Part shown: one piece after another, positions 10,104 to 14,760 of the stretch
Layout of the letters: every line of letters starts with the position of its first letter
Numbering within the stretch: the stretch's first letter is position 1
Assembly (NCBI GenBank): GCA_015063845.1
Contig: SVTJ01000005.1
Coordinates: 83,454 to 123,516 of the forward strand
Reading direction: 5' to 3'
Origin: Oscillospiraceae bacterium
GTDB lineage: Bacteria > Bacillota > Clostridia > Oscillospirales > CAG-272
DNA: 40,063 nt
Translations under genes and position numbers: made by a program
Notes under the pieces: model-generated
The model's database searches: none
The model's input: the letters and a program-made list of their open reading frames with translations, nothing else
What the model was told of the DNA's origin: nothing

Positions 10104-10132
10104 ATTATACAACAATAGGAAGTTGTTTTCAA
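10104..10132 (-). promoter_or_regulatory. Internal promoter before aroC
   Basis: On the minus strand TTGAAA (10132-10127), 17 bases and TATAAT (10109-10104) lie in the 88-base gap between aroA and aroC. No terminator is visible in the gap. The second half of the cluster can thus be read both from here and by read-through from aroA, and the internal start would bypass the aroF leader control. Confidence 0.75.
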
Positions 10133-10155: not shown

Positions 10156-11427
10156 TTAGCTCTCGACATTCAATTGAACACCCAAGTGTTGCCGTACGTC
10201 CGTCCAAAAGTCGGGATAGGACTTGGAAGCGCACTCCGCGCCACGGATGACGATATCCTCCGTTGCGGCGGCGGATGCTACGCACGCGCTCATAGCTATG
10301 CGGTGGTCGTTAAAGCAATCGACCGCTCCGCCCGAGAGCGCTTTCTTTCCTTTTATGATAAGACCGTCATCGGTCTCGGTCACGTCTGCTCCGAGAGCGT
10401 TCAGCATAGCCGATACCGACATAAGTCTGTCGCTTTCCTTTATTCTTAGTCTTGCCGCACCGTATATGGTGGTCGTGCCGTCCGCGACAGATGCCACCGT
10501 TGCCAGCGCAGGCACCATATCGGGTATTTGCGAGGCGTCTATCTCTATACCGCAAAGAGCTTTTCCGCCCTTGACGGTGAGTACACCGTTGCTTTCGGTC
10601 ACATCCGCGCCGAAGCGGCGTAATATATCCACAATAGCTCGGTCGCCTTGGTGAGAGCGTGCGCTAAGACCGACAACACTCACCTCTCCCTTGCCAACGG
10701 CTCCCATACAAAGCGGAAATGCGGCATTCGACCAGTCTCCCTCCACCACAAGCTTAGAAGGGGAACAAAGCTTGGCATTTTCTCTTATGATATAGCCGTA
10801 TTCAGTCTTTTCGGGAGCTGCGCCAAACAGAGAAAGCGCGTCCACCGTCATATCAATATAAGGCGCGGATTGCGTTTCTCCCTCGATAATAAGTCTGCCA
10901 CCCTTTCCTGAGAAGGTGAGCGCAAAAAGCAGACCGCTTATAAACTGCGAGGAAACGTCGCCTCTTATGCGGTATTCCTTGCCCGTAAGAGCGCCCGTGC
11001 ATACAAGGGGATTTGAGCCTTGCGCGGAAAGAGACGCGCCGTGAGCGACAAGCTCCTCATAAAGAGGGGAGAGCGGACGCTCTGGAAGTCTGCCTCGCAT
11101 GTCGAAGCTTGCCTTTATTCCGAGAGCGGGAACTAACGGCAATAGAAAGCGAAGCGTCGAGCCGCTTTCGTTGCAGGGAAGGATAGCACCGTCAACAGGT
11201 GTCTTTATTGGCGTTACGTAAAAGAGCGGCGCTTCATAGAGAATAGACGCGCCAAGCGCGCAAAGGCACGCGGCAGTCGCCTCTATATCCTTGTTGGTCC
11301 TATCGCAGCGCACGACCGTGTCTCTGTCCGCAAACGCGGCGCAGATAAGTATGCGGTGTGCAACGGATTTGGACGATATAGCCTCTATCTTGCCCATAGG
11401 GGTAGAGGGCTTAACGGTGATATTCAT
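10156..11427 (-). CDS. aroA: 3-phosphoshikimate 1-carboxyvinyltransferase (EPSP synthase)
   Basis: EPSP synthase joins phosphoenolpyruvate to shikimate-3-phosphate. The 423-residue product carries SSKSVAHR near the N-terminus, ESGSTLRFLLPL, SSQFISGLLFAL, RIKESDRL and DCFNDHRIAMS, the expected substrate-binding blocks. The ATG at 11427 is chosen: an AAAGGA site lies in the end of aroB, and the protein then starts MNITVKPS as in homologues. A longer reading from 11460 would overlap aroB and add 11 unrelated residues. It lies 5 bases after aroB, and no gene is co-directional directly after it until the separately promoted aroC. Confidence 0.95.
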   Translation of the reverse strand: MNITVKPSTPMGKIEAISSKSVAHRILICAAFADRDTVVRCDRTNKDIEATAACLCALGASILYEAPLFYVTPIKTPVDGAILPCNESGSTLRFLLPLVPALGIKASFDMRGRLPERPLSPLYEELVAHGASLSAQGSNPLVCTGALTGKEYRIRGDVSSQFISGLLFALTFSGKGGRLIIEGETQSAPYIDMTVDALSLFGAAPEKTEYGYIIRENAKLCSPSKLVVEGDWSNAAFPLCMGAVGKGEVSVVGLSARSHQGDRAIVDILRRFGADVTESNGVLTVKGGKALCGIEIDASQIPDMVPALATVASVADGTTTIYGAARLRIKESDRLMSVSAMLNALGADVTETDDGLIIKGKKALSGGAVDCFNDHRIAMSACVASAAATEDIVIRGAECASKSYPDFWTDVRQHLGVQLNVES

Positions 11428-11432
11428 ACGGA

Positions 11433-12485
11433 TCAAAGTCCTTTCGAAATGAAATCGCAAAGCTCGTCAATTGGGAGCTTCAAAAGTCTTGTGTCGCCGA
11501 TGGCGTATGGAACTACCAGTGTTATGTCGTTGCCCTTGCGCTTTTTATCGGCGGTGGCGACGCTTGCAAGCTGATCTGCCGTAAAGTCGCAGGACGTGGG
11601 AAGCTTCTCGCGCTTCAAGGTCTCAGTTATAAGATCAAGCTCACTCTTTTCGCAGAGCCCCATATTGACGGCTGCTCGAGTGGCAATGACAGTGCCTATT
11701 GCGACCGCGCTTCCGTGAGATATCGTAAGACCCGAGCACACCTCTATAGCGTGACCTATGGTGTGTCCGAGATTGAGAAGCTGACGGCAGCCACTCTCAA
11801 ATTCGTCTTCTTCAACTATTCTTGCCTTGTTGCTGACGCACTCCGCGATCACGTTCTCTATCTGAGACTTTACGCCGCAAGCGAGACTTTCAAAGAAGGC
11901 GCGGTCGTTGATTATGCCGTATTTTATTACCTCGGCGCAGCCATCTGCAAATATCTCGGGGCTGAGCGTGTCGAGTGTTGTGTAGTCGCATATAACGAGA
12001 GAGGGCTGGTGGAATGCTCCGAAGAGATTTTTGCCCGCTCTGAGGTCGACAGCCGTCTTTCCACCGACCGATGAGTCAACAGCGGATAGAAGCGTTGTAG
12101 GCATCTGCACGAATTTTATTCCGCGCATATAAGTAGCCGCCGCAAAGCCGCCCATATCTCCGACCACTCCGCCGCCAAGCGCGAGAAGCATATCCGAGCG
12201 CGTCATTCTGTTCTCGGCCATAAACTCAACTATCTCAACGAGAGTGGTCGTGTTTTTAGATGCCTCTCCGTGAGGGAATACGTAGGTTATGGTCTCAAAT
12301 CCGACTGCTTCCATAGAAGCTCTTGCTCTGTCGAGATAGAGTGCGGCAACCGTGTCGTCGGTGACGATACATACCTTGCATTTCTTTTTTATAACGTCAA
12401 GGCAAAGAGAGCCGCATCTATCGAGCAGGTCGTTGCCTATGAGTATATCATACGGTGTTGAAGCGTTTACTTTTACGGTCCTCAT
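11433..12485 (-). CDS. aroB: 3-dehydroquinate synthase
   Basis: This NAD- and metal-dependent enzyme cyclises DAHP to 3-dehydroquinate. The 350-residue sequence shows FPHGEASKN, the NAD-binding GGGVVGDMGGFAAATYMRG, PTTLLSAVDSSVGGKT, and the metal-binding Glu/His segments in CAEVIKYG and LNLGHTIGHAIE. The ATG overlaps the tyrA stop as TAATG, with GGTGGA upstream, so its translation is probably coupled to tyrA. It is the third gene of the aroF-led operon. Confidence 0.96.
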   Translation of the reverse strand: MRTVKVNASTPYDILIGNDLLDRCGSLCLDVIKKKCKVCIVTDDTVAALYLDRARASMEAVGFETITYVFPHGEASKNTTTLVEIVEFMAENRMTRSDMLLALGGGVVGDMGGFAAATYMRGIKFVQMPTTLLSAVDSSVGGKTAVDLRAGKNLFGAFHQPSLVICDYTTLDTLSPEIFADGCAEVIKYGIINDRAFFESLACGVKSQIENVIAECVSNKARIVEEDEFESGCRQLLNLGHTIGHAIEVCSGLTISHGSAVAIGTVIATRAAVNMGLCEKSELDLITETLKREKLPTSCDFTADQLASVATADKKRKGNDITLVVPYAIGDTRLLKLPIDELCDFISKGL

Positions 12486-13318
12486 TATCCGTCCACCTTT
12501 TCCTTAGCAATTCTTCCGTCGCGCAAGAGCGAGCGGAGCGTGTCCGCATCATTTGCGGATATGGCGTTTCTATATTCGCTGAGAGACTTGATTATGTTGT
12601 CTATTTCATAGAGCAGAGGCTCTTTGTTATCAAGGAAAAGCTCTGTCCACATATTTTCATTGAGCCATGCGACACGGGTCATATCCTTGTAGCTTCCCGC
12701 GGAAAAGCCCTTGTGGTTTTGGGCGGTGGGGCTCTTTACGTAAGCGTTTGAAACGATGTGCGCGAGCTGTGACGTAAATGCTATCATCATATCGTGCTCC
12801 TCGGCGGTGGTCACGCTTATCTTGCCAAACATAGCGGGCTCGAGAAGCTTTTTGATACGCGCGAGAAAATAAATATCGTCGTAAACGGCGGGAACGAGCA
12901 CCATGGGAGCGTTCTTGAAAAGCGTTGCCTTTGAGTATTTTATGCCCGAGTATTGAGTGCCCGCCATTGGGTGCGCTCCCACAAAGGTGAAGCAGTAGTC
13001 GGCGGCGAGCTTGAATCCTACCTCGCAGATCTCCTTTTTTATGCCGCAAAGGTCCATAACAACGGTCTTTTTTGGAACAGTGTAGGGAGCTATCTGAATG
13101 AGATACTTAACAGTTGCCTCGGGGTAAAGAGCAATGAGCACAAGGTCGCACTCAGCAATTCTTTCGTTTGTGAGCGTACCGTCAGAGATGCCCGCAAGCT
13201 CTGCGTATCCGAGCGCGGCACTGTCTATATCGTAAGCGAGAACGGTGTGTCCTGCTGCCTTGTATGCTTTAGCCATCGAGCCGCCTATAAGTCCGAGACC
13301 GCAAATTCCAACTACCAT
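12485..13318 (-). CDS. tyrA: Prephenate dehydrogenase
   Basis: TyrA oxidatively decarboxylates prephenate to 4-hydroxyphenylpyruvate, the tyrosine branch. The protein is 277 residues: an N-terminal Rossmann domain with GICGLGLIGGSMAKA, then GAHPMAGT and a helical C-terminal domain with FTSQLAHIVS and FSAGSYKDMTRVA. It lacks the ACT domain found in many Bacillus TyrA proteins, so feedback control by Tyr, if any, would have to act elsewhere. Its AAGGAG site lies in the last codons of aroF, and the start is 2 bases past the aroF stop. Confidence 0.94.
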   Translation of the reverse strand: MVVGICGLGLIGGSMAKAYKAAGHTVLAYDIDSAALGYAELAGISDGTLTNERIAECDLVLIALYPEATVKYLIQIAPYTVPKKTVVMDLCGIKKEICEVGFKLAADYCFTFVGAHPMAGTQYSGIKYSKATLFKNAPMVLVPAVYDDIYFLARIKKLLEPAMFGKISVTTAEEHDMMIAFTSQLAHIVSNAYVKSPTAQNHKGFSAGSYKDMTRVAWLNENMWTELFLDNKEPLLYEIDNIIKSLSEYRNAISANDADTLRSLLRDGRIAKEKVDG

Positions 13319-13320
13319 TT

Positions 13321-14328
13321 TTAAATCTCCTTAACTGCGTCGAGCACGCGCTTGACAGACTTGGTTACGTCAGCGAAAGCTTCGGGCGTGAGCGACTGAG
13401 GTCCGTCGCAAAGAGCGTGAGCGGGGTCGTTGTGTACCTCTATCATAAGACCGTGCGCGCCTGCCGCTGCCGCCGCCATAGCCATAGGCTTTACAAGCTT
13501 GGCAACGCCCGTTGCGTGTGAGGGGTCGATGATAACGGGAAGGTGAGTGAGCTCCTTGAGCATAGGAACGGCGGAGATGTCAAGTGTGTTTCGCGTGTAG
13601 GTCTCGAAGGTGCGTATGCCTCTCTCACAAAGAATGACGTTCTCGTTTCCGCCCGCCATGATGTACTCAGCCGACATGAGCAGCTCTTTGAGTGTGTTTG
13701 CAAGTCCACGCTTGAGAAGAATGGGCTTTTGTGTGCGGCCAAGCTCCTTAAGAAGCTCAAAGTTCTGCATATTTCGCGCACCGACCTGAATAACATCAAC
13801 GTCCTCGAACATAGAGAGGTGATTTGCGTTCATTATCTCTGTGACGATAGGAAGTCCGGTCTCTGCCTTTGCCTTGAGAAGTATCTCTATGCCGTCAGCC
13901 TTAAGACCTTGGAAGTCGTACGGAGAGGTTCTCGGCTTGAACGCACCGCCGCGAAGCATCGTAGCACCCGCCGCCTTTACGGCTTTTGCTATCGCCATGA
14001 CCTGCTCCTCGCTCTCTACTGAGCAAGGACCTGCCATAATTGCGAAGTCAACGCCGCCGACACTTGTGTTTCCAACCTTTATCACGCTGTCGTCGGGGTG
14101 GAACTTTCTGTTCGCGCTCTTGAAGGGCTCGCTTATTCTCTTGACTGTCTCCACCATTTCAAGACCGAGCAAAAGGTCCTCGTCTATCTTAGACGTGTCG
14201 CCTACGAGACCGATTATAGTGTGGTCGTGTCCCTTTGATATATGAACGTCAAGTCCTTGACCCTTGAGCCAGGACGAGAGATTCTCGATTTGCTTGTCGT
14301 TTGTTCCTTGTTTGAGTACCGCTATCAT
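13321..14328 (-). CDS. aroF: 3-deoxy-7-phosphoheptulonate (DAHP) synthase, type I-beta with N-terminal regulatory domain
   Basis: This enzyme condenses phosphoenolpyruvate and erythrose-4-phosphate, the committed step of aromatic synthesis. The 335-residue protein has a ferredoxin-like domain at residues 1 to about 72 and a catalytic barrel with MAGPCSVES, RGGAFKPRTSPYDFQG, KRGLANTLKE and PVIIDPSHATG. In characterised enzymes of this layout, such as that of Thermotoga maritima, the N-terminal domain mediates inhibition by Tyr and Phe; that is known for the family and inferred here. It is the first structural gene after the Tyr/Phe leader peptide and terminator, with AAGGAG seven bases upstream of its ATG. 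Confidence 0.95.
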   Translation of the reverse strand: MIAVLKQGTNDKQIENLSSWLKGQGLDVHISKGHDHTIIGLVGDTSKIDEDLLLGLEMVETVKRISEPFKSANRKFHPDDSVIKVGNTSVGGVDFAIMAGPCSVESEEQVMAIAKAVKAAGATMLRGGAFKPRTSPYDFQGLKADGIEILLKAKAETGLPIVTEIMNANHLSMFEDVDVIQVGARNMQNFELLKELGRTQKPILLKRGLANTLKELLMSAEYIMAGGNENVILCERGIRTFETYTRNTLDISAVPMLKELTHLPVIIDPSHATGVAKLVKPMAMAAAAAGAHGLMIEVHNDPAHALCDGPQSLTPEAFADVTKSVKRVLDAVKEI

Positions 14329-14345
14329 AGTAATTCTCCTTGAAT

Positions 14346-14389
14346 ATATAAAAACAATGAAGCTCGCGGGTGTTTCCCGCGAGCTTCAT
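14346..14389 (-). terminator. Attenuator terminator between leader peptide and aroF
   Basis: On the minus strand ATGAAGCTCGCGGG pairs perfectly with CCCGCGAGCTTCAT (14 bp) around a 5-base loop and runs into TGTTTTTATATA. It stands about 68 bases after the leader-peptide stop and about 20 bases before the aroF start. It therefore interrupts the operon's own transcript rather than ending an upstream gene. Confidence 0.9.
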
Positions 14390-14441
14390 TTATGGTTAAA
14401 TGGTAAAAATATCATAAAACTAAAAATCCGCACCAAAAAGC

Positions 14442-14482
14442 ACCCTTATTTTTTAATTACTTAAAGTAATAAAAATAAGAGT
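14442..14482 (-). promoter_or_regulatory. Leader hairpin overlapping the Tyr/Phe codons
   Basis: The codons for leader residues 11-18 (ACTCTTATTTTT then ATTACTT) pair with the following AAGTAAT and AAAAATAAGGGT, with one short bulge and one G-U pair. The hairpin straddles the leader stop codon. A ribosome stalled at the Tyr/Phe run would cover the 5' arm and free the 3' arm, the behaviour expected of the control hairpin in ribosome-mediated attenuation. The exact antiterminator partner is not obvious by eye. Confidence 0.7.
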
Positions 14483-14513
14483 AAAAATACTTGTTTGCGA
14501 ATACCTTATTCAT
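14457..14513 (-). CDS. Tyr/Phe-rich leader peptide of the aro operon
   Basis: This is an 18-codon ORF, MNKVFANKYFYSYFYYFK, with an AAGGAG site seven bases before its ATG and a TAA stop. Residues 9-17 are Tyr or Phe in 8 of 9 positions (5 Tyr and 4 Phe in the whole peptide), and there is no Trp. It starts about 25 bases into the transcript of a consensus promoter and ends before a hairpin and terminator upstream of aroF. This is the classical layout of an attenuation leader peptide, whose translation reports the supply of charged tRNA-Tyr and tRNA-Phe. The operon downstream makes precursors of exactly these two amino acids. The gene is too short to be found by length-based prediction. Confidence 0.88.
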   Translation of the reverse strand: MNKVFANKYFYSYFYYFK

Positions 14514-14543
14514 GACATTTCTCCTTGTATCAACAATAAAATA

Positions 14544-14572
14544 AGTTTATCACTATAAAAGCCTTTTGTCAA
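14544..14572 (-). promoter_or_regulatory. Main promoter of the aromatic operon
   Basis: On the minus strand TTGACA (14572-14567), a 17-base spacer and TAAACT (14549-14544) precede the leader peptide. Transcription should start near 14537, giving a leader of about 210 bases before aroF. Confidence 0.85.
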
Positions 14573-14656
14573 GAGGTTTTTGAAAAATAATTTAGCGATT
14601 TATCATAATAAAGTAAAAGCGTACGTATTTCCCTCGAGTTTTAGAGATACCAATAT

Positions 14657-14690
14657 AAAAATCTCCCCGCCGATCTTTTCGGCGGGGATC
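14657..14690 (-). terminator. Terminator after the transaldolase gene
   Basis: On the minus strand GATCCCCGCCGA pairs with TCGGCGGGGAG around AAAGA, followed by ATTTTTATA. It ends the transaldolase transcript beyond repeat copy 2 and insulates the aro promoter. Between it and that promoter (14573-14656) I see only AT-rich sequence. Confidence 0.88.
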
Positions 14691-14700
14691 TTATATGTGT

Positions 14701-14760
14701 TAAAGTTCTTTAGGGGAGTTTGAGGGGTGCTATCTTTTCAGAATGCACCCCTCAAAAATT
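14701..14760 (-). repeat. Intergenic hairpin repeat, copy 2
   Basis: Read on the minus strand, TTGAGGGGTGCATTCT pairs imperfectly with the following AGCACCCCTCAA. A tail AACTCCCCTAAAGAACTTTA follows. The stem base and tail match copy 3 (36397-36460) closely: CCCCTCAAACTCCCCT is shared exactly. It lies between the transaldolase stop and that gene's terminator. The GAGGATGCGTT lead-in of the other two copies is not preserved here. Confidence 0.7.

Follow-up and report, generated by a model that had tools for sequence, protein, structure and literature searches.

How is aroF, the gene at which aromatic amino acid synthesis starts, controlled in a Clostridia-type genome: by a T-box, the better-known device of Bacillota, or by the translation of a short peptide? 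The question is raised by the 40,063-nucleotide stretch of Oscillospiraceae DNA analysed here (the window), in which a gene cluster led by aroF is preceded by a short ORF dense in Tyr and Phe codons. A sequence-only reading had proposed that this ORF encodes the leader peptide of a ribosome-mediated attenuator. Based on the comparisons described below, we consider it highly likely that aroF is indeed preceded by a transcription attenuator of the ribosome-mediated type, whose leader peptide is rich in Tyr and Phe.

The elements of the leader lie on the minus strand of the window, and the promoter, the AAGGAG and the 18-codon ORF with eight Tyr or Phe in nine codons that had been reported before aroF were all found again. 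The candidate sigma-70-type promoter (TTGACA-17-TAAACT, with a TG before the second hexamer; 14544–14572) has 10 of 12 matches; since a scan of both strands of 1 kb returned four promoter-like sites against a shuffle mean of 2.0, this match counts for little by itself. A Shine-Dalgarno (SD) sequence, AAGGAG (14521–14526), precedes the leader peptide ORF MNKVFANKYFYSYFYYFK (18 codons, 14457–14513), which, as had been claimed, contains no Trp. Its sensor codons (14463–14489) belong to region 1, and the conserved prefix in front of them (the VFANK codons, 14490–14505) forms the base of a 1:2 hairpin, in which TTCGCA of the prefix pairs with TGCGGA of region 2. Region 2 (14413–14446, core GGGTGCTTTTTGGTGCGG) has two alternative partners: region 1, with which it forms a protector, and the terminator, with which it forms an antiterminator. 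For the latter its partner is region 3 (14367–14387), comprising the 5′ arm of the terminator, the loop and the start of the 3′ arm, and the duplex has an energy of −20.3 kcal/mol (z −3.1). The intrinsic terminator hairpin (3:4, 14356–14390) has a stem of 15 pairs, 9 of which are G-C, followed by GTTTTTAT; both the stem and the T run after it had been described before, with the stem counted as 14 pairs rather than 15. The ribosome site and start codon of aroF (14328) are downstream of this terminator, 128 nt separating the leader stop codon from the gene. As a whole, the leader RNA has a folding energy of −68.4 kcal/mol; its shuffles average −34.0 (z −8.9), and none of the 200 is as good. Because the fsa-type gene upstream ends with a terminator-like hairpin of its own (14664–14688, minus strand), we take the leader to be the start of a new unit. 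Two consecutive inverted repeats follow that gene (14753–14722 and 14688–14664, minus strand), of which the second is likely to be a two-way terminator.

We then determined how far Tyr/Phe-rich ORFs are a regular feature of aroF upstream regions. AroF was found in 65 of the 98 related genomes searched, and a further 80 loci, the best of 580 or more, were drawn from named records; 150 loci in all were oriented and read; one (L044) was set aside for having too little upstream DNA, leaving 149. These loci are related and their counts are not independent events; some represent the same genome in two collections, and the sets of 142 regions and 107 leaders used below drop exact copies only. The best stretch of ten codons held at least six Tyr/Phe in 113 of the 149 loci, five in 10 and at most four in 26. 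At the threshold of six in ten, 107 of the 142 non-redundant regions scored, as compared with 73 of 2840 dinucleotide shuffles, and at seven in ten, 87 regions scored, as compared with 19 of 2840. When other residue pairs were compared at seven in ten, the next best after Tyr-Phe (87 regions) was FL, with 19. On the antisense strand of the 142 regions only two reached six in ten and none seven, while DNA further upstream yielded 1 of 138 and the gene start 0 of 142. The density of Tyr/Phe codons upstream of aroF is therefore far above chance. In the window's genus, 29 of 30 genomes (the window's own included) had an aroF match and all 29 had the Tyr/Phe ORF (L001–L028, together with L113, whose gene is cut by a contig end). 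Across the related-genome set, at least one leader was present in 51 of 64 genomes and 14 of 19 families (one genome with a split match, G091, being left out), and the leader-bearing named strains include Sporobacter termitidis (L051), Aminicella lysinilytica (L074), Angelakisella massiliensis (L094) and Yanshouia hominis (L106). Tyr/Phe-rich leader ORFs were also seen before aroF in metagenome-assembled genomes labelled Treponema, Treponemataceae, Lentisphaerae and Oligosphaeraceae (L070, L073, L101 and L110), reflecting either gene transfer or binning error. No Pfam or NCBIfam family was found for four leader peptides of 22–35 residues. As a genome-wide detector in the 30 genus genomes, a loose Tyr/Phe codon pattern proved unsuitable, since it also matches poly-T runs and many other places; it had three matches in the window's genome, the aroF leader among them.

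Several features indicate that the leader ORF is likely to be translated. An SD core precedes the start codon in 107 of the 113 leaders, whereas for the remaining ATGs of these regions the figure is 39 of 391; the start codons are ATG in 108 cases, GTG in four and TTG in one. Among 150 of the 378 genus pairs, which are not independent, 38 of 50 indels inside the ORF were multiples of three, as against 115 of 436 after it. Within the run, variation among the 28 genus loci tends to preserve the aromatic residues: of 57 variant codons, 35 remain Tyr or Phe (4 synonymous changes and 31 Tyr/Phe swaps, with 22 other changes), a count that leaves out one Leu/Ser column and in which 15 of the 22 other changes fall in the last two columns.

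The terminator regularly accompanies the ORF. A hairpin followed by a T run was matched in all 113 leader loci, whereas shuffles gave a hairpin of any kind in 139 of 565 cases; with a cut-off of −14 kcal/mol the figures were 108 of 113 and 10 of 565. In one of the 113 loci the detected hairpin begins before the last Tyr/Phe codon. Among the 26 loci that lack the Tyr/Phe codons the match was present in 12, three of which are T-box loci. Relatives that keep the terminator while losing the codons or the ribosome site had been named as the pattern that would tell against the sequence-only reading; with the hairpin-T match in all 113 loci that have the codons and a ribosome site in 107 of them, the comparison did not refute it.

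The long hairpin with the sensor codons as its 5′ arm was also recovered, in that region 2 pairs back on the codons: this protector (1:2) had a z of −6.0 in the window, and 78% of 107 loci reached p ≤ 0.05. For the antiterminator (2:3), with 72% of the terminator allowed as partner, a stretch chosen after seeing that the loop and the start of the 3′ arm take part in the duplexes, p was 0.01 in the window (for −20.3 kcal/mol, z −3.1) and at most 0.05 in 76 of 107 loci; with 62% as partner, it was 0.08 in the window and at most 0.05 in 40% of the 107. The leader can thus be folded into mutually exclusive structures, for which a search had been suggested: the segment of region 2 used by both the protector and the antiterminator measures 6 nt or more in 105 of the 107 loci. 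RNAalifold, applied to 27 leaders of the window's genus and one from another genus of the family, returned 12 pairs, six of which change on both sides, two in the 1:2 core (out of eight consensus 1:2 pairs in the 28 aligned sequences) and four in the terminator. Because terminators were visibly misaligned in the leader alignment, 2:3 was assessed by swapping partners between loci. Own partners paired at a mean of −18.5 kcal/mol and swapped ones at −13.2, with the own partner in the best 5% for 37 of 107 loci; its advantage over swapped partners is thus confined to roughly one locus in three, and relatives share partners. Between clades both partner sequences vary while complementarity is kept, as in L058 (GCGATTTATGCTGC with GCAGATAGATCGC) and L048 (GGTATTTGCTGC with GCAGTGAATACC). 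The ORF, its codon bias, the terminator, both alternative pairings and their conservation are in this way direct results of the computation.

To see how a translating ribosome could set the choice between these structures, transcripts of eight chosen loci were folded as they grew, with mixed results. In the window, 2:3 had no pairs without a ribosome and 17 with a ribosome stalled at any codon of the run, and in all eight loci a ribosome on a run codon permits 2:3. The ribosome-free transcript forms 2:3 transiently in L048 (20 pairs), L058 (19), L083 (13) and L115 (22). A ribosome at the stop codon lowers 2:3 in L003, L038, L048, L058, L083 and L115, and leaves it unblocked in the window (17 pairs) and L010 (22 pairs), so that in these last two ribosome release must be quick. 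Of the 107 loci, 60 have a stop codon that coincides with or follows the point where the antiterminator arm begins, and in 45 others the stop precedes that point by no more than 15 nt; the window's ORF is shorter than those of L003, L004 and L007 (18 as against 22 codons), which places its stop at the edge. Since the completed terminator wins at equilibrium in 8 of 8 loci, the decision to antiterminate must be kinetic.

An ORF rich in codons for the end products, a terminator between ORF and gene, and a protector and antiterminator that share one segment are thus all in place, and the proposal of a Tyr/Phe leader peptide acting through ribosome-mediated attenuation is supported by the codon bias, the terminator, the SD and the shared region 2. 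We infer from these features that, with ample charged tRNA-Tyr and tRNA-Phe, the ribosome would translate the whole run and reach the stop codon, region 2 would be covered or re-paired with the codons, and transcription would end at the terminator before aroF. Were either charged tRNA scarce, the ribosome would stall inside the Tyr/Phe run, leaving region 2 free to pair with the upper part of the terminator, and transcription would continue past this antiterminator into aroF-tyrA-aroB-aroA. That the ribosome stalls, that the leader responds to Tyr and Phe and that expression changes are predictions from its sequence.

Could the same elements be explained in other ways? The nascent peptide might itself stall the ribosome on binding free Tyr or Phe, rather than the ribosome stalling for want of charged tRNA, in the manner of TnaC, an arrest peptide. 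Such a sensor would account for the F-A/T-A-x-Y prefix that recurs before the run in many leaders of different families; however, since the codons of this prefix also form the base of the 1:2 hairpin, their conservation requires no role for the peptide, while outside its Tyr/Phe content the peptide varies widely and Tyr and Phe often swap. Moreover, with this geometry, stalling in an excess of Tyr or Phe would be expected to raise expression, and we regard an arrest peptide as very unlikely. A simpler explanation, that the hairpin is a constitutive partial terminator which merely lowers aroF, with the ORF as decoration or as an aid to translation by reinitiation, draws on the 12 of 26 loci that have the hairpin-T match without the ORF. 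It leaves unexplained the codon bias, the conserved frame, the SD and the ability of region 2 to pair with the codons as well as with the terminator, and in the window the leader stop is far from aroF for reinitiation; it seems to us just as improbable as the arrest peptide.

That the window's leader is instead a tRNA-binding T-box or another known riboswitch might be thought plausible, as T-boxes precede aroF in eight other loci and have nine matches in the window's genome. Yet RF00230 was not matched, no Rfam family reached its gathering score in the window, and a permissive Rfam search of 14300–14760 gave nine weak matches (best E 0.018), all under gathering scores and none of them a T-box, which makes this explanation exceedingly improbable. 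Ribosome-mediated attenuation thus remains our preferred reading of the leader.

How far downstream would an attenuator of this kind act? The first gene under its predicted control is, by NCBIfam, aroF (DAHP synthase, 13321–14328), followed by tyrA (prephenate dehydrogenase, 12485–13318), aroB (11433–12485) and aroA (10156–11460, its listed start overlapping the end of aroB), all on the minus strand. The further genes of the cluster were assigned as aroC, an MFS protein, pheA (chorismate mutase and prephenate dehydratase), an aroE-aroK fusion and aroQ; the matches for tyrA, the MFS protein and the fusion lie below the curated cut-offs of the models concerned. Since aroF, tyrA, aroB and aroA abut or overlap, they form one unit by sequence, in agreement with the earlier proposal for these four genes. 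The same proposal had extended control by read-through from aroC to aroQ, and this part is doubtful. No terminator was found in a scan of the aroA-aroC gap, so that read-through past aroA is possible; however, a candidate second promoter (TTGAAA-17-TATAAT, 10104–10132, minus strand) with an 11 of 12 match sits in this gap before aroC, so that a reach to aroC-aroQ is not established. This site is the best of seven matches in a 9.6-kb scan in which shuffles give 8.3 of any quality, and it suggests that the aroC-aroQ half may have a promoter of its own.

To determine the extent to which the leader occurs beyond these relatives, we turned to a phylum-wide sample, in which 253 of 299 genomes had an AroF match. 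Among 69 farther loci, which are the best-ranked part of a longer list and not a random draw, 21 passed a Tyr/Phe/Trp filter with an SD, all with a hairpin-T match; we count 18 of these, because in L213, L217 and L253 the match lies inside the ORF. Of 68 loci examined beyond these, five passed the filter and came from genomes already sampled, and none of the 63 new ones passed with an SD, although L276 and L289 reached six without one. Eight additional loci comprised one Tyr/Phe leader with an SD (L259), two with an ORF lacking an SD (L265 and L266) and five with no leader with an SD (L260–L264). Because 21 of the 69 best-ranked farther loci and none of the 63 further ones pass, the leader is a trait of the window's aroF lineage: typical of it, common near it, rare beyond and not Bacillota-wide.

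The composition of the sensor appears to vary with distance and with the neighbouring gene. In the first set, 5 of 104 distinct peptides contain Trp, as do 16 of the 21 farther leaders, in two of them outside the aromatic stretch and under a filter that counted Trp too. ORFs combining Tyr, Phe and Trp were seen before farther aroF genes in L204, L205, L208, L210, L211, L214, L216–L219, L221, L230, L241 and L253, and about half of the farther Tyr/Phe/Trp leader ORFs share a recurring F-S-x-G-Y stretch. The gene 3′ of aroF in the 113 leader loci is tyrA in 98, aroB in six, pheA in one and none or another in eight. Before aroF-tyrA (106 loci) the Tyr share of Tyr plus Phe has a mean of 0.50 and a minimum of 0.25. 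Before aroF-pheA it is 0 in L128, 0.14 in L196, 0 in L198, 0 in L209 and 0.38 in L331, so that four of these five leaders are dominated by Phe, the exception, L331, having Tyr, Phe and Trp. The five differ from 103 distinct other leaders (minimum 0.18) with a one-sided Mann-Whitney p of 0.0003, or 0.001 without L209, whose leader lacks an SD, and the first three differ from the aroF-tyrA loci with a two-sided p of 0.003; the leaders compared are related, and the idea that composition follows the next gene is post hoc, since it was formed after seeing L196 and L198. Sixteen other aroF-pheA loci (L080 and 15 more) had no leader passing the filter. In L198, two short Phe-rich ORFs stand in tandem before aroF-pheA, at −354 and −183, and are possibly tandem leaders. 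Although few loci are involved, these data fit sensors that are matched to the products of the operon.

These patterns lead us to a wider proposal, one we consider possible but short of probable: that Clostridia-type bacteria have a widespread and re-tunable family of aroF attenuators, in which the logic of the fold is kept and the sensor codons are rewritten to suit the products of each operon. Such a family would use Tyr and Phe as equal inputs before aroF-tyrA, Phe almost alone in four of the five leader-bearing aroF-pheA loci, and Tyr, Phe and Trp farther away, and would give way to T-boxes elsewhere. With Tyr and Phe codons as equal inputs, one RNA would report a shortage of either amino acid. 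The aroF leaders would then offer a natural series in which the re-tuning of a regulatory RNA, or its replacement by a different one, can be studied.

T-box matches themselves occur in the same genome. T-boxes sense uncharged tRNA through a choice between terminator and antiterminator; they bind the tRNA directly, without a peptide, whereas the window's leader would use a peptide. Of the nine T-box matches in the window's genome, four exceed the family cut-off. The genes identified next to the nine are valS, trpB, ilvB, ilvA, pheS, ileS, cysS and thrS, with no family found at the threshold used for the neighbour of the ninth; the amino acid specificities of these T-boxes are taken from the adjoining genes. 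The T-box at trpB is above the cut-off (99.1 bits) and that at pheS just under it (91.8 against 93). At L158, a locus of the window's genome, another ORF stands between the T-box match and cysS. Given the pheS match and the aroF leader, tRNA-Phe is probably read in two ways in one cell: at pheS by a T-box, and at aroF through the stalling of a ribosome. If so, a peptide leader and a T-box both work in one cell at different genes. In other lineages a T-box stands directly before aroF, namely in L137, L140 and L144 (40 loci searched, a few with leaders) and in L229, L233, L234, L249 and L250 (40 loci searched), and none of these eight passed the leader filter.

The organization inferred here has known parallels. 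The enteric pheA and trp leaders encode a peptide rich in the end product and have alternative 1:2, 2:3 and 3:4 hairpins and a terminator before the first gene. The window's leader shares this layout of peptide, alternative hairpins and terminator; it differs in having Tyr and Phe mixed and exchanging with one another, in preceding a DAHP synthase gene, and in belonging to a Clostridia-type genome with T-boxes.

Among Bacillota, T-box leaders have been described on aromatic amino acid genes (PMC2494555) and, in C. difficile, at the tyrosine and phenylalanine tRNA ligases. Leader-peptide attenuation is represented by His leader attenuators in Eubacteriales, Erysipelotrichales and the B. cereus group (PMC9413887), by the hisS family (PMC2965389), by hisZ, C. 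difficile included, and by a leucine-rich attenuator in Staphylococcus aureus. Like the attenuator proposed for the window, the His leaders use a leader peptide at Bacillota genes that in other cases carry T-boxes, but they serve histidine genes rather than aroF (PMC9413887, PMC2965389). The closest described system among the open-access matches listed is uORFC-13-1, which has 24 representatives before aroF in Acholeplasma and environmental sequences and has been proposed to be a Phe-dependent uORF attenuator, with control suggested to operate through the speed of Phe incorporation (PMC8632094). Like the window's leader, it lies before aroF and has a possible promoter, an RBS, a start codon, a short ORF and an intrinsic terminator (PMC8632094). 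Comparing the two by description only, uORFC-13-1 has a U run and at least one Phe, whereas the window's leader has a mixed Tyr/Phe run, and an antiterminator, predicted in the window, is not among the uORFC-13-1 features compared here (PMC8632094). Among the open-access full-text matches listed, none described a Tyr/Phe leader at a clostridial aroF; nevertheless, the remark of the sequence-only reading that it knew of no described leader of this form for aroF in Clostridia is too strong, given uORFC-13-1 before the Acholeplasma aroF and the other Bacillota leader peptides. If our reading is correct, many gut Clostridia control aroF by translating a Tyr/Phe peptide rather than by a T-box. Leader-peptide attenuation as such is already known; what is unusual here is its breadth and the mixed Tyr/Phe sensor at aroF.
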